From an uncultured Ectothiorhodospiraceae bacterium (lineage in GTDB: Bacteria > Pseudomonadota > Gammaproteobacteria > Nitrococcales > Nitrococcaceae): 64,000 nt of DNA. The translations under genes were made by a program, and so were the position numbers. Under the pieces are notes generated by a model. The model was not told the DNA's origin and did no database searches. It worked only from the letters and a program-made list of their open reading frames with translations. The stretch spans positions 1 to 64,000 of the forward strand of contig CAJXKP010000009.1 in assembly GCA_913055565.1 (NCBI GenBank). Reading direction: 5' to 3'. Positions 207-43,652 of the stretch are shown in pieces (the first letter of the stretch is position 1; every line of letters starts with the position of its first letter).

Positions 207-475
207 CCTAACAAGGCGCCTGGCCACCCGGAGCGCCGGGATAAGACGGCAAGAGATTGGAGGTGAAAGTCCTCTACCCGGTAGGGCGTAGCGAGCCGCC
301 GGGGCCCCGAGTCATGGGTCGCTGTCCGCGAGGGCCGCGGCTAAGCGTTGACAGGGGAACGTGCAGGCACCGTATAGCCAAAGGAACAAAGACACCCACT
401 ACTTACAATCACTGTTGGAACTACTCTGACAGCGGGGGCGGGGAGCGCAGAAGGATGCCGCCTTATTGGGTGTGA
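193..475 (+). ncRNA. Group II intron 5' (domain I) remnant
   Basis: The block at about 251-400 contains gaggtgaaagtcctc-like pairing sequence, then gagtcatgggtcgctg, ggggaacgtgcaggca and ccaaaggaacaaagacaccc, in the order and spacing typical of domain I of bacterial group II introns. The 5' boundary is uncertain: GTGCT at 193 and the ggcgcc hairpin at 203-220 are both candidates. No reverse-transcriptase ORF or domain V/VI follows; the sequence runs directly into Y1-transposase remnants. The intron is therefore a truncated relic lying antisense to the integrase fragment. Confidence 0.55.
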
Positions 476-9780: not shown

Positions 9781-10952
9781 TAGGTGGCCTGCGGTAGTCG
9801 GCGCCAGGGCCCGACTAGGGCCTCGGTGGCGAAGCGGGTGACCGGCAGGGCGGCCATGACGGCGAGGTGGTCGCGCGCTGTGCCGGTTTCTGTAAGGAAG
9901 CGCACCAGCCGCTCGGCGGGTACCCGTTCGAACAGTGTCTGGAATAGGGCCGGGGCCGCTTCGGGCTCGCGGGTGAGCCGGCGGAGGAAGACGCCGTCGA
10001 GCCAGCGGGTGACTCGCGAGCGCACGGTCGCCGAGGGGTAGCGCCCCGCTGCTAGCTGCTGCGCCAGACATTGCGAGTGGCGCTGGATGGGTAGGAAGGC
10101 GTAGCCGCTGCTCGGCCGCGGCGCCCCGGCGCGGGTGCCGATGGGGATGATACCCGGCTGCTCGGGCGGCGATTGCGGCGCGGTGGTCATGGGGATGCGG
10201 CCACTCTCGCGAGCGGTGACCTGATGGTCGCGACTGCCTAGGCGCGCCGCGAGGACGCGGCGCAGATGGGCGTCGTGATCGGGCTCGGTTGGGGCGTCCG
10301 AGGGCACGAAGGCCGTGGATTCGACCAATGCCTCATGATCGCTCAGCGCTAGGATGTAGGCGAAGCCGATGGCGTTCGGGCTCGGTCGATCACGGAAGTC
10401 CATCAAGTCGACCGCGTCGGGCTGCCAGCTGGGCGCGTCGGTTTGGACGCGCCAGCCGGTGAACGTCTGCCAGAGGAAGGGATGGCCCGCGGTGGCCCAG
10501 TCCTGGGGTGCGGGCGGGCGCGCGTCAAAGGCAAGATCCGCCGCAATGGCGCGGGCGTCGGTGTTGATGCGCAGCGCCGGCCCGTCCTCGGCCACCGATT
10601 GCACGCGCTCGCCGAGGGCGAGTACGACGTTGGAGGCCTCGTTGAGGATGGCGAGCGCCGTCTCGTAGAACGCGGCGCCCGGGAGTCGGCTATACGGGTA
10701 CCGGTTGCAGGCAATACAGGTCTCCCCGGCGTCGGTGGCCACGCGCCACTGGTACCAACGATGGCTGACCGCCTGGCGGTAGGGATGGTCCATGACGTCC
10801 CAGAAGCACCAGGTCCGGTCGTCGCTGTACGCCTGCCTCGGGTCCACGATGGTGATCGAGGCGGCGACGTCGGCGCGAACCAGCTCGGCGGCGAGGCTCA
10901 GTCCGGCCAGCCCGCCGCCGAGGATCGCGATGCGGCGGGGGCATGGCGTCAC
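9780..10952 (-). CDS. crtY: Lycopene beta-cyclase CrtY
   Basis: 390 residues. It has an N-terminal dinucleotide-binding motif (RIAILGGGLAGLSLAAEL), the DDRTWCFWD block typical of CrtY/CrtL cyclases, GFAYILALSDHEALVESTAF mid-protein and a C-terminal ERLVRFLTE block. It converts lycopene to beta-carotene by cyclising both ends. Its start overlaps the crtB stop (ATGA, 10949-10952) and its stop overlaps the blh start, so translation of the cluster is coupled. There is no sign of truncation or internal frameshift. No ketolase or hydroxylase gene follows, so beta-carotene seems to be the end carotenoid of this cluster. Confidence 0.92.
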   Translation of the reverse strand: MTPCPRRIAILGGGLAGLSLAAELVRADVAASITIVDPRQAYSDDRTWCFWDVMDHPYRQAVSHRWYQWRVATDAGETCIACNRYPYSRLPGAAFYETALAILNEASNVVLALGERVQSVAEDGPALRINTDARAIAADLAFDARPPAPQDWATAGHPFLWQTFTGWRVQTDAPSWQPDAVDLMDFRDRPSPNAIGFAYILALSDHEALVESTAFVPSDAPTEPDHDAHLRRVLAARLGSRDHQVTARESGRIPMTTAPQSPPEQPGIIPIGTRAGAPRPSSGYAFLPIQRHSQCLAQQLAAGRYPSATVRSRVTRWLDGVFLRRLTREPEAAPALFQTLFERVPAERLVRFLTETGTARDHLAVMAALPVTRFATEALVGPWRRLPQAT

Positions 10953-11887
10953 GGTCGGGCGGCCTCCGGGTCGCTCCCGGGCCAGCCCGCGATGGGCCCG
11001 TGGAGGCTGGGGTCGTGGGCCGGCATGGCGCTGAACTTGGGTGGCAACCAGTCGGCGACGGCGCCCAGCGTGAGCTGCGCCTTGGCGCCGGGCGAGACGC
11101 TAGCTCGCTGGTGCCAATAGGCCTCCGGGCCCAGTGCCCTTATGCGATGCCCAATAGCGCGGTAGATGCGCGCCGCGGCCAGGATGGCGACGCGCGCGCG
11201 CCGCGGGATGAACGCCAGCCCCTGCTCGGCGCTGGCGTAGTAGCGCTCGGCGAGCTCGAGGGTATTGCTGATGGCGGCGTAGGCCTGATGCCGCAAGACC
11301 GGATCGGGGGCGGTCAGCCGATGGGGATTAACCGGTCCGCCCAGCTGGTCGCTGGGGATGTAGCGGCGCCCGCTCTCGGCGTCCTCGACGACATCGCGGG
11401 CGATATTGGTTAGCTGCATGGCGATGCCGAGATCCACGGCAAACGGCTCCGCTGCCGGATCGTCAATGCCGAGTAGTGGCCGCATCATCAGCCCGACCGT
11501 GCCGGCAACGCGATAGGCGTAGCGGATGAGCTCATCCGTGCTCGCCAGCTCGCAGTGGCTAAGATCGCCGCGCACGCCGTCCACGAGGTCAATGGCTGCC
11601 GTTGGCGGCAGCCCGCTTCGATCGGCTAGTTCCAGCAGGGCGCCGGCTACCGGGTGGTCGGCGTCGTGGTCCTGGAGCGCGTCGCGGATGGCGCTAAGCT
11701 GGGCCTCGCCGGCCTCGGGCTCGCCGCTATCGGCGAGGTCGTCGATGGTGCGGCAAAACGCGTAGAGCTGAGCGGCGTCATCGCGTGTCTGCCGGGGTAG
11801 CAACCGGGCCGCCCATGCGAATGAGCGCGCGTGGTAGCGCAGGATGGCCTGGGCCTCGCTGGTTGTTGGTGCCTCGATCGCGCTCAT
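10949..11887 (-). CDS. crtB: Phytoene synthase CrtB
   Basis: 312 residues of the squalene/phytoene synthase family. It condenses two geranylgeranyl diphosphates into phytoene. The two Asp-rich magnesium-binding motifs are visible: YAFCRTIDDLAD near residue 43-54 and MQLTNIARDVVED near 157-169, followed by GRRYIPSDQL. RVAGTVGLMM is also characteristic. The N-terminal YHARSFAWAARLLP corresponds to the conserved S-F block. It overlaps crtI by four bases upstream and crtY by four downstream. Confidence 0.93.
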   Translation of the reverse strand: MSAIEAPTTSEAQAILRYHARSFAWAARLLPRQTRDDAAQLYAFCRTIDDLADSGEPEAGEAQLSAIRDALQDHDADHPVAGALLELADRSGLPPTAAIDLVDGVRGDLSHCELASTDELIRYAYRVAGTVGLMMRPLLGIDDPAAEPFAVDLGIAMQLTNIARDVVEDAESGRRYIPSDQLGGPVNPHRLTAPDPVLRHQAYAAISNTLELAERYYASAEQGLAFIPRRARVAILAAARIYRAIGHRIRALGPEAYWHQRASVSPGAKAQLTLGAVADWLPPKFSAMPAHDPSLHGPIAGWPGSDPEAARP

Positions 11888-13416
11888 GGGACCACCCCCT
11901 CTGCCACCAGTAGCGATTCCACAACCTTGGCGGACGTCACCACGCCGGGGACGCCGGCCCCTGGATGGGTGCCCGCTCCCACGAAGTATAGACCGTTCAG
12001 CTCCTCAGAGCGGTTATGGAAGCGAAACCAGGCGGATTGGCGGAATAGCGGCTGGATGCTGAAGGCGCTGCCGTGGACGGCGAGGTAATCGCGGCCGAAA
12101 TCCTCCGGCGTAACGTGGAACGCGGTGATCAGGTGCTCGCGCAGATCGGGTAGCAGCGTTGCCGCTAGGCGGTTGATAACGGCTTCCTTGAGACGAGGCG
12201 CCTCGGTGGCCCAGTCGATGTCGGCGGTGAGGTTGGGTACCGCGGCGAGGACGTAGAAGCCGTCACGCCCCTCCGGCGCGGCGGTGGGGTCCGTGGCGGT
12301 GGGGCGGTGGAGATAGAGGCTGGGAACGTCGGCGCGCTCGCCGCGCTTGAAGATGCCGTCGAGCTCGTCGTGGTAGTCCGGCCCCATCTGGATGGTGTGG
12401 TGGGCGACGTCGGGGTAGCGGCAGTCGGTCGCGAAGTAGAGCACGTAGAGACCGATGGCGTAGTGCAGCCGGTCCAGGCGCCTGTCGCTCCAACGCCGCC
12501 GGCGCGTGGTGGCGAGCATGTACTTGTGGACATGGGCTGGGTCGGCGTCGCCGACGACAACGCTGGCCGGGAGGTGCTCGCCATTGGCCAGGGTTACGCC
12601 CGTGGTAGATCCGTCGCTCGCCTCGATCCGCGCCACGGTCTGCCCGGTGCGAACCGTGACGCCGACCTCTCGCAGGAGCTCGTCCAAGGCGTCCACCAGG
12701 GCCCCCGTGCCCCCCTTGGCAAAACAAACCCCGGCCTGGTTCTCCAGCTCATGAATGAGGCTATAGATCGCCGTGGTGGAGCGCGGGTTGCCGCCGATGA
12801 GCAACGGCTGGAGGCTAAAGGCCTGGCGCAGGCGCTCGTCGGCCATGTAGCGAGCCGCTAGGCCGTAGACGGACCGAAAGGCCTGTAGCCAGAGCAGGCG
12901 CGGGCCGTAGCGGAGCAGGGTGGTTAATCGGTGGAACGGCTGCGCCCCGAGGCGTTGGAAGGCGGTGTCGTAGAAGCGGCGCGCGTGCGCTGCGAAGCGG
13001 CGATACCCCGCGAGATCGTCCGGAGCAAGCTGGGCAATCGCCGCCTCGGTCGCTTCTCGATCGGGGCCGTAATCCAGGTGGCTGCCGTCATCGAAGCGAA
13101 TGCGATACCACGGGCTTACCGGCAGAAAGCTAACGCGCTCGGCCCGGGAGCGCCCGAACAGGGCGAAGAGCTCGTCGAACAGCCATGGCGCCGTGATGAC
13201 GGTCGGACCGGCGTCGAAGCGTAAGCCGTCGCGTTCGTAGACCTGGGCGCGTCCGCCGAGTCGGTCGAGGCGCTCGACTAGGGTCACCTCAAGGCCCCGG
13301 GCGCGCAGCCGCAGCGCGGCCGCTATGCCGCCGAAGCCGCCGCCGATGACGACGGCCTGTGAGCTGTTGGTCGTGCCGCCACCAGTGGCGGGGTCGAGCC
13401 CATCGGCTTGGCTCAT
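11884..13416 (-). CDS. crtI: Phytoene desaturase CrtI
   Basis: 510 residues, the usual length for bacterial CrtI. The N-terminus has the FAD motif (VVIGGGFGGIAAALRLRARG, then LDRLGGRAQVYERDG) and FDAGPTVITAP, a CrtI hallmark. The C-terminus has GLYFVGAGTHPGAGVPGVV, the carotenoid-desaturase signature. It converts phytoene to lycopene in four desaturation steps. A VGDADP block mid-protein is also family-typical. The gene overlaps crtE upstream and crtB downstream by four bases each. Confidence 0.93.
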   Translation of the reverse strand: MSQADGLDPATGGGTTNSSQAVVIGGGFGGIAAALRLRARGLEVTLVERLDRLGGRAQVYERDGLRFDAGPTVITAPWLFDELFALFGRSRAERVSFLPVSPWYRIRFDDGSHLDYGPDREATEAAIAQLAPDDLAGYRRFAAHARRFYDTAFQRLGAQPFHRLTTLLRYGPRLLWLQAFRSVYGLAARYMADERLRQAFSLQPLLIGGNPRSTTAIYSLIHELENQAGVCFAKGGTGALVDALDELLREVGVTVRTGQTVARIEASDGSTTGVTLANGEHLPASVVVGDADPAHVHKYMLATTRRRRWSDRRLDRLHYAIGLYVLYFATDCRYPDVAHHTIQMGPDYHDELDGIFKRGERADVPSLYLHRPTATDPTAAPEGRDGFYVLAAVPNLTADIDWATEAPRLKEAVINRLAATLLPDLREHLITAFHVTPEDFGRDYLAVHGSAFSIQPLFRQSAWFRFHNRSEELNGLYFVGAGTHPGAGVPGVVTSAKVVESLLVAEGVVP

Positions 13417-14507
13417 GGGACCGCTGGGCTCGTTTCGACGTCACGAATCCATTCGATGGTTCGTTCCAGCAAGCCACGCCCGCCCTCTGGCAGGCTAACG
13501 GCCGCCGAGCGCGCGTCAGCGATGAGGCGTGCTTGATGGGCCCGGCATGCCTCGGGCGCGGCGCTGTTCAAAAGGCGTTGGCGCCAGGCCGGGATGTCCG
13601 CGCTGGCGTCTGGCGATCCCTCCAGGAAGGTCCTCATGGCGGCCGCGTCGTCGGCATTCGCTTGCGTGAGCCAGTGGACGACGGGCGCACTGAGGCGGCG
13701 TTGCGCGAGATCGGACTGGCGCGAACGCCCTGCTTTCCGTCCCGCTAACTCAGCCAGGTCGTCGCCGATCTGATAGGCGGCGCCCAAGGCATTCCACGCC
13801 CGCTGCGCGGCCTTCACGCGCGTGGCATCCGCGCCGGCCACCAGAGACCCGGCAGCAACCGGCAAGGCCATCAGCGCCCCGGATTTGGCTCGTGCTCGAC
13901 TCTCGTAGTCCGACACGGGGTCATCGATGGTAGCGATGGCGACCTCGTCGGCCTCGCTGGCCTGCCCAGCGGCTGCCTCGCGCACGGCGCTCGCTAGTTC
14001 GCGGACAACGGGCGCTGGGTTATCGATGGCCGCCACCGCATCAAACGCGGCGGCCAGGAAGTGATCGCCGAGCAGCAGGGCCGTGTCGGCGCCATAGGTC
14101 TTCCACGCAGCGGCCTGGCCGCGTCGCTCGCCGTCTTGATCGGTGAGATCATCATGGATCAGTGAGGCCTGATGGATTAGCTCGACCGCGGCGGCTGCTC
14201 GCTGGGCGCTGGGGGAGGGAGCGCCCGCGGTGACGGCGCTAAAGGCGTCCAGGGTGAGCTGCGCGCGCAAGCGCTTACCGCGTATGCCTAGCTGCTCACC
14301 AGCGAGGCGCCCGAGTTCGCCGTCGGTCACGCTTGCCTCGCGCATCACGGCCTCGACCGCGGCCAGGGCCGCTGGCGAGCCGTCGGCCTGGTCGATGGCG
14401 TCGGAGCGCGCGCGATCACGCGGCGCTGCGGCCGACGGGGTCTCGACGGGGCTATGATCAATGGCAGGGGCCGCGTCAACGGGGGATGTCTGTGTTCTTA
14501 TAACCAT
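13413..14507 (-). CDS. crtE: Geranylgeranyl diphosphate synthase-like CrtE
   Basis: 364 residues of the trans-prenyltransferase family, with a low-complexity N-terminal extension of about 50 residues before the domain. The first Asp-rich motif is LIHDDLTDQD and the second is YQIGDDLAE, where the last Asp of the usual DDxxD is Glu. The basic block upstream reads RGKRLRAQ instead of the common GGKRxRP. Position in the operon supports GGPP synthesis for CrtB. The upstream rhodopsin stop is 156 bases away with a hairpin between. The extended N-terminus may mean that the true start is an internal codon. Confidence 0.82.
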   Translation of the reverse strand: MVIRTQTSPVDAAPAIDHSPVETPSAAAPRDRARSDAIDQADGSPAALAAVEAVMREASVTDGELGRLAGEQLGIRGKRLRAQLTLDAFSAVTAGAPSPSAQRAAAAVELIHQASLIHDDLTDQDGERRGQAAAWKTYGADTALLLGDHFLAAAFDAVAAIDNPAPVVRELASAVREAAAGQASEADEVAIATIDDPVSDYESRARAKSGALMALPVAAGSLVAGADATRVKAAQRAWNALGAAYQIGDDLAELAGRKAGRSRQSDLAQRRLSAPVVHWLTQANADDAAAMRTFLEGSPDASADIPAWRQRLLNSAAPEACRAHQARLIADARSAAVSLPEGGRGLLERTIEWIRDVETSPAVP

Positions 14508-14624
14508 AGCGGCCTACCGTCCCTTGACAGCTCATGGGGCTGGCGCCTGCAGGCGTCCAGCGCCTTGGTGATCCGGTCTGCCGGCCGCTGGGGGCGGGTT
14601 ACCGGGTCACCGCCTAATACGGGG

Positions 14625-14645
14625 GACGGGTGCGGTGCACCCGTC
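14625..14645 (-). terminator. Hairpin between rhodopsin and crtE
   Basis: A perfect 9-bp stem (gacgggtgc / gcacccgtc) with a 3-base loop lies 18 bases past the rhodopsin stop. There is no clear U-tract on the minus-strand transcript, so it may act as a partial terminator or RNA-processing site that keeps rhodopsin mRNA more abundant than the crt mRNA, rather than as a full terminator. Confidence 0.5.
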
Positions 14646-14663
14646 CAGGTCGATGAGCTCGCT

Positions 14664-15422
14664 TTACGCGGGCTTGTGGCCTTCTGCCTCCGACTTCCGC
14701 ATGGCGATCATGTAGATCAGCACGCCGAAGACCGCCTTGGCGACGATGTCCGCGATGGTGTAGCCCACCTGCAGGAATGTCTCGGCATTCGGTCCCTCAA
14801 GACCGATCAGCGGGAACAGGTACACCAGCGGGTAGAACAGCCACGCCACGATGGTCAGATAGCGGGCCGCGTTGACCAGCGGCTTGGCCTCTTCCGGCTG
14901 ACGGTCGACGGCCTCGCTGAGTCCGACATAGAGGGTGTAGACGATCACCACGAACGGGATCATCGACAGCACCCAGAAGGCGAACGCCACACCGGTGGCC
15001 TCAGCGATCTCGCCGGGGTAGCCGAGCGCGATCATCAGCGCCGCCAGGCCGGCAAGCCAGGTTGCCTTCTTGATCGTCTCCTCCCGCGACAGGCGCATGA
15101 CCAGGATGAGCTCGATCATGAGCAACGGTACGGTGAGCAGCCAGTCCACGTAGCGGTAGGCGTCGTTAAACGACTTGCCGCCGGCCTGAACACTGCCATC
15201 GACAATGGCGTAGGCCGCTTCCCAGCTCTCGAAGATGCGGAAGTAGTGGTAGAAGGCAATGAAGGTCACGAGGCCGGTTATGGTCATCGCAGCGCGGTAG
15301 GGCGGGGCGACCTGACTGCGCTGGAGCCAGAAGAACAGTGTTGCCGCCGCCATGACGGCGATCGTGAAGGAGAAGAAGTTGGAGACCAGGTTGTACTGGA
15401 AAAGGGACAGCTCGGCTTCCAT
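14664..15422 (-). CDS. Xanthorhodopsin-clade light-driven proton pump (DTE motif)
   Basis: 252 residues and seven membrane helices. Helix C carries Asp93, Thr97 and Glu104 (RYVDWLLTVPLLMIE), the DTE pattern of proton-pumping proteorhodopsins, with the partner His at 59 and the retinal Schiff-base Lys at 229 (YTIADIVAKAVFG). The residue at the proteorhodopsin-105 tuning site is Leu101, predicting green absorption. The sequence aligns without gaps to Gloeobacter-type xanthorhodopsins (FYHYFRIF, GYPGEI, MIPF), but the fenestration Gly that admits a carotenoid antenna is Trp150 here. A ribosome-binding aagaggg precedes the ATG. It is followed by the retinal-synthesis operon on the same strand. 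Confidence 0.93.
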   Translation of the reverse strand: MEAELSLFQYNLVSNFFSFTIAVMAAATLFFWLQRSQVAPPYRAAMTITGLVTFIAFYHYFRIFESWEAAYAIVDGSVQAGGKSFNDAYRYVDWLLTVPLLMIELILVMRLSREETIKKATWLAGLAALMIALGYPGEIAEATGVAFAFWVLSMIPFVVIVYTLYVGLSEAVDRQPEEAKPLVNAARYLTIVAWLFYPLVYLFPLIGLEGPNAETFLQVGYTIADIVAKAVFGVLIYMIAMRKSEAEGHKPA

Positions 15423-40075: not shown

Positions 40076-40098
40076 GACCCCGCCTCGCAGGCGGGGTC
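40076..40098 (-). terminator. Rho-independent-type terminator after the D-T-T rhodopsin
   Basis: A perfect 10-bp stem (gaccccgcct / aggcggggtc) with a 3-base loop begins 14 bases past the rhodopsin stop codon. On the minus-strand transcript it is followed by tattaat, a weak U-rich tract. It probably ends the rhodopsin transcript before the DUF6164 gene. Confidence 0.7.
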
Positions 40099-40111: not shown

Positions 40112-40855
40112 CTAGAGGTTACGCATCGCCTCCTTGATCTCGGCGTCGCGGGTAATGCTCTTAGCGGTCACGAAGACGACGATGCCGAGGCCTACCTTAT
40201 TGATGATGTCCGCGATGTTATAGACCAGCTCGCGGAGCACCTTGGCAACCTCGGCGTCCGATACCAGGCCGAGGATGAAACCGAGCGGGTAGACCATCCA
40301 GCCGATAACGATGAATAGGACCATGTACTTAAATGCCCGCTTCACCGGTGCGGCCTTATCCTGGGCGGCCTCCCCAAAGAACTGGGTGAGCAGATACAGC
40401 AGCATCAGATACGAGATGAAGGACAGTCCGAACATGGTCCATGCCTCGAACTGCTTGAATTCCATGCCCGAGAAGATCTCGCCGAAGTAACCGAAGACGA
40501 TCATGAGGATGTCGACGGCAACGACGATGCCCAGAAGGCTAAGCCGGCGCTCCTGGAGCTGGAGCAGTAGACCGATGGTGACCAGGATGAGCGGGGTGGT
40601 GACGATCCAGTCGATGTAGCGCACATGCGTCGGCATCGCGAGCAACTGCTCGATGTCGCCGTTGAGGCCTACCGTGAGATGCATCTGCCAATACATGAAC
40701 GCCGCGACGGCGGTGTAGATGCCGGCCACGACGACGGCCGGCCGGAATTCCTGGGCCACGGCGTCGCGTTCCAGCCAGAAATAGGCTGTCCCGCCGGCCA
40801 TGGCGAAGACGCTCGCCAGAAACGTGTATTGGGTAATGAGGACAAGGCCTTCCAT
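40112..40855 (-). CDS. Microbial rhodopsin with atypical D-T-T helix-C motif
   Basis: 247 residues and seven membrane helices. The retinal Lys is at 220 (YNIADIINKVGLG). Helix C reads RYIDWIVTTPLILVT: Asp82 (Schiff-base counter-ion), Thr86, and Thr93 where proton-pumping proteorhodopsins have a Glu donor. The proteorhodopsin His75 site appears to be Gln57 (MYWQM). Helix D has Asp115, at the place I align with Asp115 of bacteriorhodopsin. It is far from the 14.7-kb pump in sequence. The start is set by aaaggag seven bases before the ATG at 40855, not the ATG four bases earlier. It could be a slow-cycling pump or a sensor; function is open. Confidence 0.9.
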   Translation of the reverse strand: MEGLVLITQYTFLASVFAMAGGTAYFWLERDAVAQEFRPAVVVAGIYTAVAAFMYWQMHLTVGLNGDIEQLLAMPTHVRYIDWIVTTPLILVTIGLLLQLQERRLSLLGIVVAVDILMIVFGYFGEIFSGMEFKQFEAWTMFGLSFISYLMLLYLLTQFFGEAAQDKAAPVKRAFKYMVLFIVIGWMVYPLGFILGLVSDAEVAKVLRELVYNIADIINKVGLGIVVFVTAKSITRDAEIKEAMRNL

Positions 40856-40910
40856 TCATGGGCTCCTTTAGAGGTTAATACTAATAACGGTCGCGGTCGT
40901 CCGAGAAACG

Positions 40911-40956
40911 CTGAGCAATGGGCGTCGCCCCGGGGCTCCCGGCGGGCATTGCTCAG
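40911..40956 (-). promoter_or_regulatory. Perfect inverted repeat between the winged-helix-like gene and the rhodopsin
   Basis: Arms ctgagcaatg (40911-40920) and cattgctcag (40947-40956) are perfect 10-bp complements around a GC-rich centre that can pair further. It begins 8 bases past the upstream stop and ends 56 bases before the rhodopsin start. It may be a terminator or attenuator for the upstream gene, an mRNA-processing stem, or a protein-binding palindrome; no clear U-tract follows it. Confidence 0.6.
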
Positions 40957-40963
40957 ACTTGCC

Positions 40964-41548
40964 CTACAGCCATTGCTGGAACTGGCTCGCGAAGCGTTCG
41001 CTCGCGGGTTTGCCGGCGTATAGCTTGATTAGGCCGACGAGCTTATTGATGAGCTGTCTCAGCTCCTCACTATCATTAACCGAGTCCAGTCTCTCAAGGA
41101 CGGTCCGACCTTCGTCACCGAGCAGCCGGTTGATCTCGGGGCGGAGGGCGTTCTTGGCCTTGGCGAGTTCCGGCCCAGCGGTTGTGCTTGCACCCTGAGC
41201 CGATGCCTCGGGGGAACCCGTACCACCGCTCGGCGCCTTGGCCTCCGGGGCCGGGGTACCCGGCCCATCGATCACCTCGCCGAGCTCCGGGTCGACAAGC
41301 TCGATTAGGCCGTCATCGCGCATGCCCTTGATGATGTCCGGGTGCTCGCCGACGGCCGGGATCATCTGGCTGAGGGTCTCCATGGGGCGCTTGCCGTTGG
41401 CGTACAGCAGGACCTTGCGCTGGGCGTCACTGAGCGAGCGCTTTTGGGTGACCAGCTCCTCGCTGCCCGCCCGGGTTCGGCGCACGGTTGGCCCCATGGG
41501 CTCGTCGTTATCATTGCCAGCGGTAGGAAACTGCGTAATTGTCGCCAT
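40964..41548 (-). CDS. Uncharacterised protein with winged-helix-like N-terminal domain, upstream of the D-T-T rhodopsin
   Basis: 194 residues, soluble. After a short polar tail, residues about 34-86 (LSDAQRKVLLYANGKRPMETL, then IIKGMRDDGLIELVDP) read like the winged-helix domain found in several proteobacterial regulators: helix, NGKR turn, helix, then DGLIEL. A Pro/Gly/Ala-rich linker (about 94-126) leads to a helical C-terminal domain (about 130-194, RPEINRLLGDEGRTVLERL and SEELRQLINKLVGLIKLYAG). The upstream region carries a CRP-type site and TGTACA repeats. Its place 109 bases before the rhodopsin on the same strand suggests a regulator or partner, but this is inference. Confidence 0.6.
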   Translation of the reverse strand: MATITQFPTAGNDNDEPMGPTVRRTRAGSEELVTQKRSLSDAQRKVLLYANGKRPMETLSQMIPAVGEHPDIIKGMRDDGLIELVDPELGEVIDGPGTPAPEAKAPSGGTGSPEASAQGASTTAGPELAKAKNALRPEINRLLGDEGRTVLERLDSVNDSEELRQLINKLVGLIKLYAGKPASERFASQFQQWL

Positions 41549-41720
41549 GGGCTCCTCGCATTCTTAGATGGATTTGTCGGAGGAGAGGGCTGTAGCCACA
41601 GCCGCATCGCGGCAACATGTCACGGCGCCGTGTCGACTTGCCACTTCAGCCCACAACTTCTAGAGCAGTGGGCGTCTCCCCATGAAGAGGTAAACCTAGC
41701 CCCCTTCCTACGACTTGCAC

Positions 41721-41737
41721 TGTACAGAGGCTGTACA
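41721..41737. promoter_or_regulatory. Two TGTACA hexamers spaced by one helical turn
   Basis: TGTACA occurs at 41721-41726 and 41732-41737, a period of 11 bp. From memory, TGTACA-type elements are reported for LitR/CarH/PplR light-responsive MerR regulators, and CarH operators use 11-bp repeats. The same sequence is also a dyad, so other regulators are possible. It lies about 175 bases upstream of the winged-helix-like gene that precedes the rhodopsin. Confidence 0.5.
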
Positions 41738-41745
41738 ACCTATTT

Positions 41746-41761
41746 TGTGACAAATATCACA
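41746..41761. promoter_or_regulatory. CRP/FNR-type operator, TGTGA-N6-TCACA
   Basis: Positions 41746-41761 match the E. coli CRP consensus half-sites exactly (TGTGA, six bases, TCACA) within AT-rich sequence unlike its surroundings. It sits 185-213 bases before the minus-strand start at 41548 and beyond the end of the convergently read ABC gene, so it most likely serves the winged-helix/rhodopsin unit. Confidence 0.65.
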
Positions 41762-41816: not shown

Positions 41817-43652
41817 TTACTGGTAACCGGCCGCCTGCAGCCGAAACAGCTCCGCATAACGGCCATTTAACGCCATGAGTTCATCGTGGCTGCCATGCTC
41901 GGTCACCTGGCCCGCGTCCAGGACTACGATGCGGTCGGCCATGCGAACGGTGGAGAAGCGATGCGAGATCAGGATGGCGATGCGCCCCTCGGTCATGTGT
42001 CGGAAGTAGCGAAACACCTCGGCCTCCGCCTCGGCATCCATGGCGGCGGTGGGCTCATCCAAGACCAGGACCTCGGCACCACGTCGCATGAAGGCACGGG
42101 CAATGGCGATCTTCTGCCACTGACCACCGGATAGCTCGCGGCCGCCCTGGAACCAGCGCCCGAGCTGGGTCTCATAGCCCTCGGGCAGCTCCTCGATGAA
42201 ATCCGCGGCCAAGCCCTGCTGGGCGGCGTCGCGCCAGGCCTGGGCGTCGTCGAAACGGGCCACGTCCCCGGCGCCGATGTTCTCGCCGACCAGCATCTGA
42301 TAGCGCATGAAGTCCTGGAAGATCACGCCGATACGGCGGCGTAGGGCCTCGGGGTCCCACTCTCGCAGATCGGTGCCGTCCAATAGGATACGCCCGGCCG
42401 TGGGGTCGTAGAGGCGGCCGAGCAGCTTGATGAGCGTGGTCTTGCCGGAGCCGTTACGGCCGACGAAGGCCAGGCTCTCGCCGGGCCTAAGATGGAGATC
42501 GATGCCGGAGAGGGCGGGTGCCTCGTTACCGGGGTAGGTAAAGCTGACGCCCTCAAAGCGTACCCCGTCCCCGGGGTCGCGGCCCGCCGTGGCCTCGCCC
42601 GAGGCCACTCCGACGGGGTGCTCGAGGTACTCGTAGAGATTGGAGAGGTAGAGGTTGTCCTCATACATCCCGCTGATCGCTGTGAGGCTGGCGCTCACGG
42701 CGGTCTGGCCCTGCCGGAACACCGACAGATACATGGTCATCTGACCGAGGCTGATCTGGCCGCGCACCGTCGCCAGGACGACCCACGCATAGGCGCCGTA
42801 GAAGATCAGCGTGCCCACCAGTCCAAGGACGAAGCCCCAGCCTTCCCGGCGGATGGTGAGATCGCGGTCTTCGCGATAGATGCGCTCGAAGATGCGCCGG
42901 TAGCGATCTAGCAGTAGGGGGCCGAGCTGGAACAGCTTGACCTCCTTGGCGCTGTCCTCGCGGGCAAGGACGGTCTCCAGATAGGCCTGGCGCCGGTTGT
43001 CCGGTGATCGCCGCCGGAACAGGCGAAAGGCGTCGCCGGAGAACTTGGCCTCGGCGGCGAACTGCGGCAGACCGCCCGCGATCAGCAGGACCACGGCCCA
43101 CGGCGAGAAGCCGAACAACAGCGCGGCGTAGCTAGCCAACGAGATGCCGTTCTGGATCAGGGTAAACGTCTTATTGACCAGGCCCAGGGGCCGGGTCGAG
43201 GCCTCGCGGCGGGCCCGGGTGAGCTTGTCGTAGAACTCGGAATCCTCGAACTGCGCCAGTTCCAGGGTCAGGGCCTTGTCCAGGATCATGACGTTGACCC
43301 GTTGGCCCAGCAGCCCGCGCAGCAGCGATTGCCCCAGCTGATTGCCGCGCTGGGCGGCGGCGATACCCGCCATGATCGCTCCCTCCAGGGCGACCAGCCA
43401 GAAGATGGGGCCGATGGCGGCATTGCCGTCCATGGCGGCGACCACGCCATCGACGATGAGCTGACCCACCCATGCCGCGGCGGCTGGTAGCAGGCCAGCG
43501 ACCAACGTCGATGCGGCGAGGAGTAGTGTCAGCCGTCGGCTGGTGGTCCAGACCAGCTCCAGCGCACGACGGCTGTATCGGAATACACCCAGCAGGCGCA
43601 TACCTGGCTCGGCCGTCGCTGGGGAGTCGTTAGTTTCAGCGCGCGCCGACAT
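41817..43652 (-). CDS. ABC transporter, fused permease and ATPase
   Basis: 611 residues. Six membrane helices (to about residue 330) precede the nucleotide-binding domain: Walker A AFVGRNGSGKTTLIKLLGRL (about 395-412), Q-loop IFQDF, signature ELSGGQWQK, Walker B EVLVLDEPTAAMD and H-loop ISHRFSTV. The layout is that of a half-size type IV exporter working as a homodimer. GWFVWG-like substrate clues are absent, so the substrate is unknown. It is followed at its end by the regulatory region of the rhodopsin unit. Confidence 0.88.
   Translation of the reverse strand: MSARAETNDSPATAEPGMRLLGVFRYSRRALELVWTTSRRLTLLLAASTLVAGLLPAAAAWVGQLIVDGVVAAMDGNAAIGPIFWLVALEGAIMAGIAAAQRGNQLGQSLLRGLLGQRVNVMILDKALTLELAQFEDSEFYDKLTRARREASTRPLGLVNKTFTLIQNGISLASYAALLFGFSPWAVVLLIAGGLPQFAAEAKFSGDAFRLFRRRSPDNRRQAYLETVLAREDSAKEVKLFQLGPLLLDRYRRIFERIYREDRDLTIRREGWGFVLGLVGTLIFYGAYAWVVLATVRGQISLGQMTMYLSVFRQGQTAVSASLTAISGMYEDNLYLSNLYEYLEHPVGVASGEATAGRDPGDGVRFEGVSFTYPGNEAPALSGIDLHLRPGESLAFVGRNGSGKTTLIKLLGRLYDPTAGRILLDGTDLREWDPEALRRRIGVIFQDFMRYQMLVGENIGAGDVARFDDAQAWRDAAQQGLAADFIEELPEGYETQLGRWFQGGRELSGGQWQKIAIARAFMRRGAEVLVLDEPTAAMDAEAEAEVFRYFRHMTEGRIAILISHRFSTVRMADRIVVLDAGQVTEHGSHDELMALNGRYAELFRLQAAGYQ

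Follow-up and report, generated by a model that had tools for sequence, protein, structure and literature searches.

Soluble partners are known for only a few bacterial rhodopsins. The standard case is ASR/ASRT of Anabaena, in which a rhodopsin and a small soluble protein are encoded side by side (PMC3267196). In genomes with flotillin-associated rhodopsins (FArhodopsins), a second, diverged rhodopsin bearing a DTT or DTL motif accompanies the genome's DTE proteorhodopsin and likewise has a conserved neighbour gene (PMC10308929). The DTT motif is also known from SAR11 rhodopsins, whose role is unknown and one group of which (deep SAR11) bound no retinal when expressed in E. coli (PMC5864233), as well as from some mirror proteorhodopsins (PMC10154332) and from the flotillin-associated rhodopsins themselves (PMC10308929). 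By itself, the motif predicts no function. Exiguobacterium sibiricum rhodopsin (ESR) illustrates what the third residue of the motif can mean for the photocycle: when its donor is disabled (K96Q), decay of the M state becomes rate-limiting, and only faint pumping is expected (PMC8387761). With respect to light-dependent transcription, the operators of CarH follow a tandem nnnnTnnACAn rule (PMC9304148), and LitR sites read TGTACA-N12-TGTACA (PMC9758184).

Here, we detail a locus from a stretch of 64,000 nucleotides (the window), which belongs to a gammaproteobacterial assembly of 2.7 Mb in 84 contigs. Reading along the minus strand, the gene for a 611-residue ABC transporter (41817-43652) comes first. 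After 268 bp of intergenic DNA stands the gene for a 194-residue protein, p194 (40964-41548), and, beyond a gap of 108 bp, the gene for a 247-residue rhodopsin of the ESR family with a D-T-T motif (40112-40855), whose immediate neighbours are p194 and a DUF6164 gene. Both open reading frames are real, p194 with a good Shine-Dalgarno sequence, and the first-pass annotation was correct that the gene of a two-domain protein immediately precedes, on the same strand, that of the rhodopsin. Base composition lends no support to a recent horizontal gain, as GC3 is typical. Separately, positions 266-395 (plus strand), at the edge of the window, match a group II intron domain (Rfam RF02005, 91 bits). 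We propose, with roughly equal measures of confidence and reserve, that p194 and the D-T-T rhodopsin constitute one functional unit, in which p194 would serve as a dedicated partner in the cytoplasm, docked on the rhodopsin's C-terminal tail. The literature that we searched, which comprised open-licence papers, contained no description of a p194-rhodopsin pair.

Conservation of the Gene Pair and of the Rhodopsin Tail

Rhodopsin scans of public genome and viral contigs with a single sequence returned nothing, and a two-row alignment with ESR returned 46 loci. In two of these ESR-like loci, both in public genomes (Polaromonas and Comamonadaceae assemblies), the gene immediately upstream of the rhodopsin is a p194 homologue in the same orientation. 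Two more genomes with this type of rhodopsin came from a search of 301 Burkholderiaceae genomes, and there too the homologue is the immediate upstream gene, such that every Burkholderiaceae genome found to have a tail-bearing rhodopsin (4/4) has a p194-family gene in this position and orientation. The conservation elsewhere that the first-pass annotation had anticipated is accordingly borne out in four genomes, and these share with the window a common rhodopsin tail. When 401 Burkholderiaceae genomes were searched with a p194-type profile, matches at E <1e-89 fell in exactly the four linked genomes; the next-best matches, at E 1e-17, were not beside rhodopsins in the loci fetched. At its locus in Exiguobacterium, ESR has no p194-like neighbour. 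A further candidate pairing, in genome G382, was rejected, as separate contigs carry its p194-family gene and its rhodopsin, and the latter is linked to a flotillin; the rhodopsin is of the DTL type and is followed by an SPFH/Band 7 gene (L117:6514-8020), which makes it a flotillin-associated rhodopsin. The four Burkholderiaceae cases probably represent one inheritance event, so the pairing should be read as occurring in two lineages, not as five independent cases.

The Burkholderiaceae operons are more elaborate than the locus in the window. They begin with genes for two extra proteins, of 114-134 and 204-211 aa, whose N-termini are of the same winged-helix type and which have no counterparts in the window; retinal-synthesis genes (crtI/crtB/crtY/blh-type) come later. 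Extra tandem winged-helix-type genes were noted at L047:4276-5293, L048, L113 and L114, with no Pfam match for those scanned.

The linked rhodopsins also share a structural feature. The window rhodopsin ends in a conserved C-terminal tail, SITRDAEIKEAMRNL (40115-40159, minus strand), predicted to continue helix G, and the corresponding motif R(E/D)xxI(R/K)EAMxxL is present in all five linked rhodopsins and in none of the other 86 among the 91 compared. The window tail aligns to that of Polaromonas with a score of 33, against 13 for the best unlinked rhodopsin, and shuffled tails attain 33 in approximately 1 of 100,000 cases (p ~1e-5). In the structural model of the window rhodopsin, the tail is helical and runs straight on from helix G to residue 246 (pLDDT ~95). 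All five linked rhodopsins fall into a single clade of the ESR family (95/95), which persists when the tail columns are removed (81/85). Taken together, the pairing in four genomes and the matching tail suggest that p194 and the rhodopsin probably work as a unit, and further members could be sought with the short tail motif.

A Rhodopsin of the ESR Family Without the Proton Donor

The product of the downstream gene belongs to the rhodopsins (PF01036, E 4e-42) and has the D-T-T motif given by the first-pass annotation, formed by D82-T86-T93. Its closest solved relative is ESR (PDB 4hyj; E 2e-49, 42% identity over the aligned part), on which its predicted structure (pLDDT 93.7) superimposes with a TM-score of 0.88-0.92 and an rmsd of 1.7. 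The fold is intact, and the counterion Asp82, Asp216 and the Schiff-base Lys220 are all in place; the protein would therefore be expected to bind retinal as its chromophore, against which stands the deep SAR11 group, likewise DTT, that bound none in E. coli. The exception is the donor position, which holds Thr93 where ESR has Lys96, and Met54 occupies the position of ESR His57. A maximum-likelihood tree, from which mirror proteorhodopsins were left out, groups the window rhodopsin with ESR relatives (91/91; 90/88 in a second tree), although its branch is long and its exact placement is for that reason somewhat doubtful. Met at the His position was initially entertained as a hallmark of the linked group but was dropped, as actinobacterial rhodopsins with a DTE motif have Met there too. 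Rhodopsin-like proteins of the Rh-noK type, with Gln, Leu or Arg in place of the Schiff-base lysine, were observed in Burkholderiaceae and in one same-family genome (L104, L105, L107-L109, L020).

The main rival to a signalling pair is a light-driven proton pump of which p194 would be an accessory or regulatory subunit, acting through the tail in assembly, localisation or gating, with the window copy a slow and drifting pump. It owes this standing to the linked Burkholderiaceae relatives, all four of which keep the Lys donor (DTK; one Polaromonas-type group and relatives, with Met or Ile at the His57 position) in operons that also supply the carotenoid and retinal genes described above; the actinobacterial relatives, in turn, keep DTE despite their Met. 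The window copy itself argues against it, having no donor, as does the presence of a separate pump. The window genome encodes two rhodopsins, both within the window, and the other is a DTE proteorhodopsin (14664-15422) 25 kb from the D-T-T gene. We regard a regulated pump as rather unlikely, if well ahead of a far-fetched reading. The DTE gene, an ordinary proteorhodopsin, opens a minus-strand cluster (10949-15422); directly behind it stand crt genes, for polyprenyl synthase, phytoene desaturase and phytoene synthase. The first-pass annotation of the pair makes no mention of this cluster, or of the 19-bp element and the intergenic inverted repeat described below.

p194 and Its Family

An AlphaFold2 model of p194, built from only three sequences and of moderate quality (pLDDT 69.5), predicts a winged helix at residues 20-87, a disordered Pro/Ala/Gly linker at 95-124 and a three-helix domain at 125-194. 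On the minus strand, the modelled winged-helix domain (residues 18-88) maps to 41285-41497 and the C-terminal helical domain (residues 124-194) to 40967-41179. The earlier guess of a winged helix is consistent with this predicted fold. Sequence searches returned no relatives of p194 in Pfam, NCBIfam, PHROGs, the PDB, plasmids or viral contigs. Foldseek likewise returned nothing significant for the model (best E 1.2), and VIA matches of the model are winged helices and helical bundles at the usual background (Z up to 7.4), including protein-protein winged helices such as those of GATOR1 (Z ~7, not significant). The "recognition" helix of p194, HPDIIKGMRDDG (within 41285-41497, minus strand), carries a net charge of -1, and this position is acidic or neutral in every linked homologue as well. 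DNA binding by p194 is consequently doubtful on the model, and protein contacts are favoured.

The wider family is common, with members in 84 of 401 Burkholderiaceae genomes, and all unlinked loci fetched lie away from rhodopsins. By eye, unlinked family genes in Burkholderiaceae (L132-L157) are repeatedly flanked by apparent enoyl-CoA hydratase and M61-like peptidase genes. Within this family, p194 sits on a very long branch. Its distance to the linked Burkholderiaceae proteins is no smaller than that to unlinked members, against which it scores slightly better, and the data neither support nor reject a single clade of p194 and the four linked proteins (p-AU 0.289). The rhodopsin tree suggests that the pair was inherited as a unit, and it is possible that the partner was instead recruited independently from the same family in each lineage.

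Candidate Regulatory Elements of the Locus

Both elements previously reported upstream of p194 are present. A perfect CRP-type palindrome, TGTGACAAATATCACA, lies at 41746-41761; the 2.7 Mb genome contains four such perfect sites and none for a control pattern. Close to it, two tandem 11-bp repeats form TGTACA-N5-TGTACA (TGTACAGCCTC-TGTACAGTGCA; 41721-41737, minus strand), of which 0.03 would be expected in the window with one mismatch allowed. This candidate CarH/LitR-type operator fits the tandem nnnnTnnACAn rule with two repeats only, and no TGTACA repeat occurs upstream of the Burkholderiaceae operons. The DTE rhodopsin has a single TGTACA 105 bp upstream of its start. Elsewhere in the same genome (L129:3584-6856, contig C10), a light-response cluster comprises a photolyase gene, a gene for a CarH/LitR-like MerR protein (L129:5038-5967) and a divergent SDR gene, and the promoter region shared by the latter two contains TATACA-N6-TGTACA. 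The regulator matches CarH over its full length (E 4e-29) but below the cut-off and has no detectable B12-binding domain, and is for these reasons at best class II LitR-like. Since it adjoins a photolyase, light control via TGTACA is plausible, and so, judging from the DNA sequence, is light-induced transcription of the p194-rhodopsin pair.

A 19-bp element, GGGGMGACGCCCAYTGCTC, stands upstream of each gene of the pair. In a count covering the window and the fetched loci, the copies upstream of p194 (GGGGAGACGCCCACTGCTC; 41663-41681, minus strand) and of the rhodopsin (GGGGCGACGCCCATTGCTC; 40913-40931, minus strand) were the only two in the window, where the element is otherwise absent within three mismatches. 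Together with the winged-helix fold, this exact duplication invites the notion that p194 is a DNA-binding autoregulator with the 19-bp element as its operator. We consider that improbable, given the acidic or neutral recognition helices, the protein-protein winged helices among the nearest structural matches and the upstream regions of the Burkholderiaceae operons, which have no element in common.

Between p194 and the rhodopsin gene lies a 46-nt inverted repeat (CTGAGCAATG...CATTGCTCAG; 40911-40956, minus strand), which was rejected as a stable terminator (z -0.25, not unusually stable; no T-tract). Behind the rhodopsin gene, the terminator claimed by the first-pass annotation holds up in part: a strong, GC-rich, terminator-like hairpin is present (40076-40098, minus strand; z -2.2), but its T-tract is poor and a terminator scan made no call there. 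That the two genes are neighbours by chance, with p194 an unrelated housekeeping-type protein, might draw on the breadth of the family and its unlinked members, on the slightly better scores of p194 against these and on the 108-bp gap with its inverted repeat, but has little to recommend it against an order and strand repeated in four genomes with related rhodopsins, a tail confined to linked rhodopsins and, as the one p194-family gene of the window genome adjoins the D-T-T rhodopsin, a chance of adjacency that we estimate from genome size at approximately 1 in 2,600.

A Working Model of a Proposed p194-Rhodopsin Unit

The functional unit that we favour would operate as follows. The rhodopsin would take up retinal and absorb light, and its helix G would extend into the cytoplasm as the conserved helical tail. 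Since only linked rhodopsins have this tail, we infer it to be the docking site of p194, or of the Burkholderiaceae homologue, and light-driven movement on the cytoplasmic side may then alter the binding or activity of the partner. Loss of the donor in the window copy (Lys to Thr) would be expected to slow the photocycle and weaken pumping, a combination that would fit a sensor output better than a pump; sensing is thus the role that we would assign to the window rhodopsin, and the DTE rhodopsin would be the genome's actual proton pump. A CarH/LitR-type repressor bound at TGTACA-N5-TGTACA would probably render transcription of the pair light-induced.

More tentatively, and with somewhat more doubt than belief, we suggest that ESR-type rhodopsins have acquired dedicated transducers from a family of cytoplasmic proteins that combine a winged helix with a helical bundle and dock on the helix-G tail, and that in the window lineage donor loss converted a pump into a sensor. 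If true, this would amount to a new type of signalling unit built on a rhodopsin. With DTT (window) and DTK (Burkholderiaceae) members in one clade, the step from pump to possible sensor is open to study within that clade.

Comparison with Known Systems

The operator candidate resembles those of CarH and LitR in that 11-bp TnnACA repeats stand in tandem ahead of p194 and a LitR-like regulator is encoded in the genome, and differs from them in having only two perfect repeats and a regulator without a detectable B12-binding domain. As with the FArhodopsins, the genome combines a D-T-T rhodopsin, a DTE proteorhodopsin and a conserved neighbour gene. However, no flotillin gene adjoins the window rhodopsin, and a flotillin-linked rhodopsin (L036) falls among other proteorhodopsins in the tree, whereas the window copy belongs to the ESR clade. 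ESR itself is alike in fold and clade, but has a Lys96 donor and His57 in contrast to Thr93 and Met54, and the window rhodopsin is further set apart by its R(E/D)xxI(R/K)EAMxxL tail and adjoining p194 gene. Of the features that define an ESR-type pump, the window rhodopsin therefore has the clade, and lacks both the Lys donor at BR position 96 and His57 with the Asp counterion. ASR has Pro for Asp212, unlike the window rhodopsin, which retains Asp216, and ASRT, compared here by description, is a 125-residue protein, p194 being a predicted winged helix plus helical domain. The likeness to ASR/ASRT is that the p194 gene adjoins that of the rhodopsin on the same strand, and this conserved neighbour, together with the matching tail, presents a directly testable receptor-partner pair.
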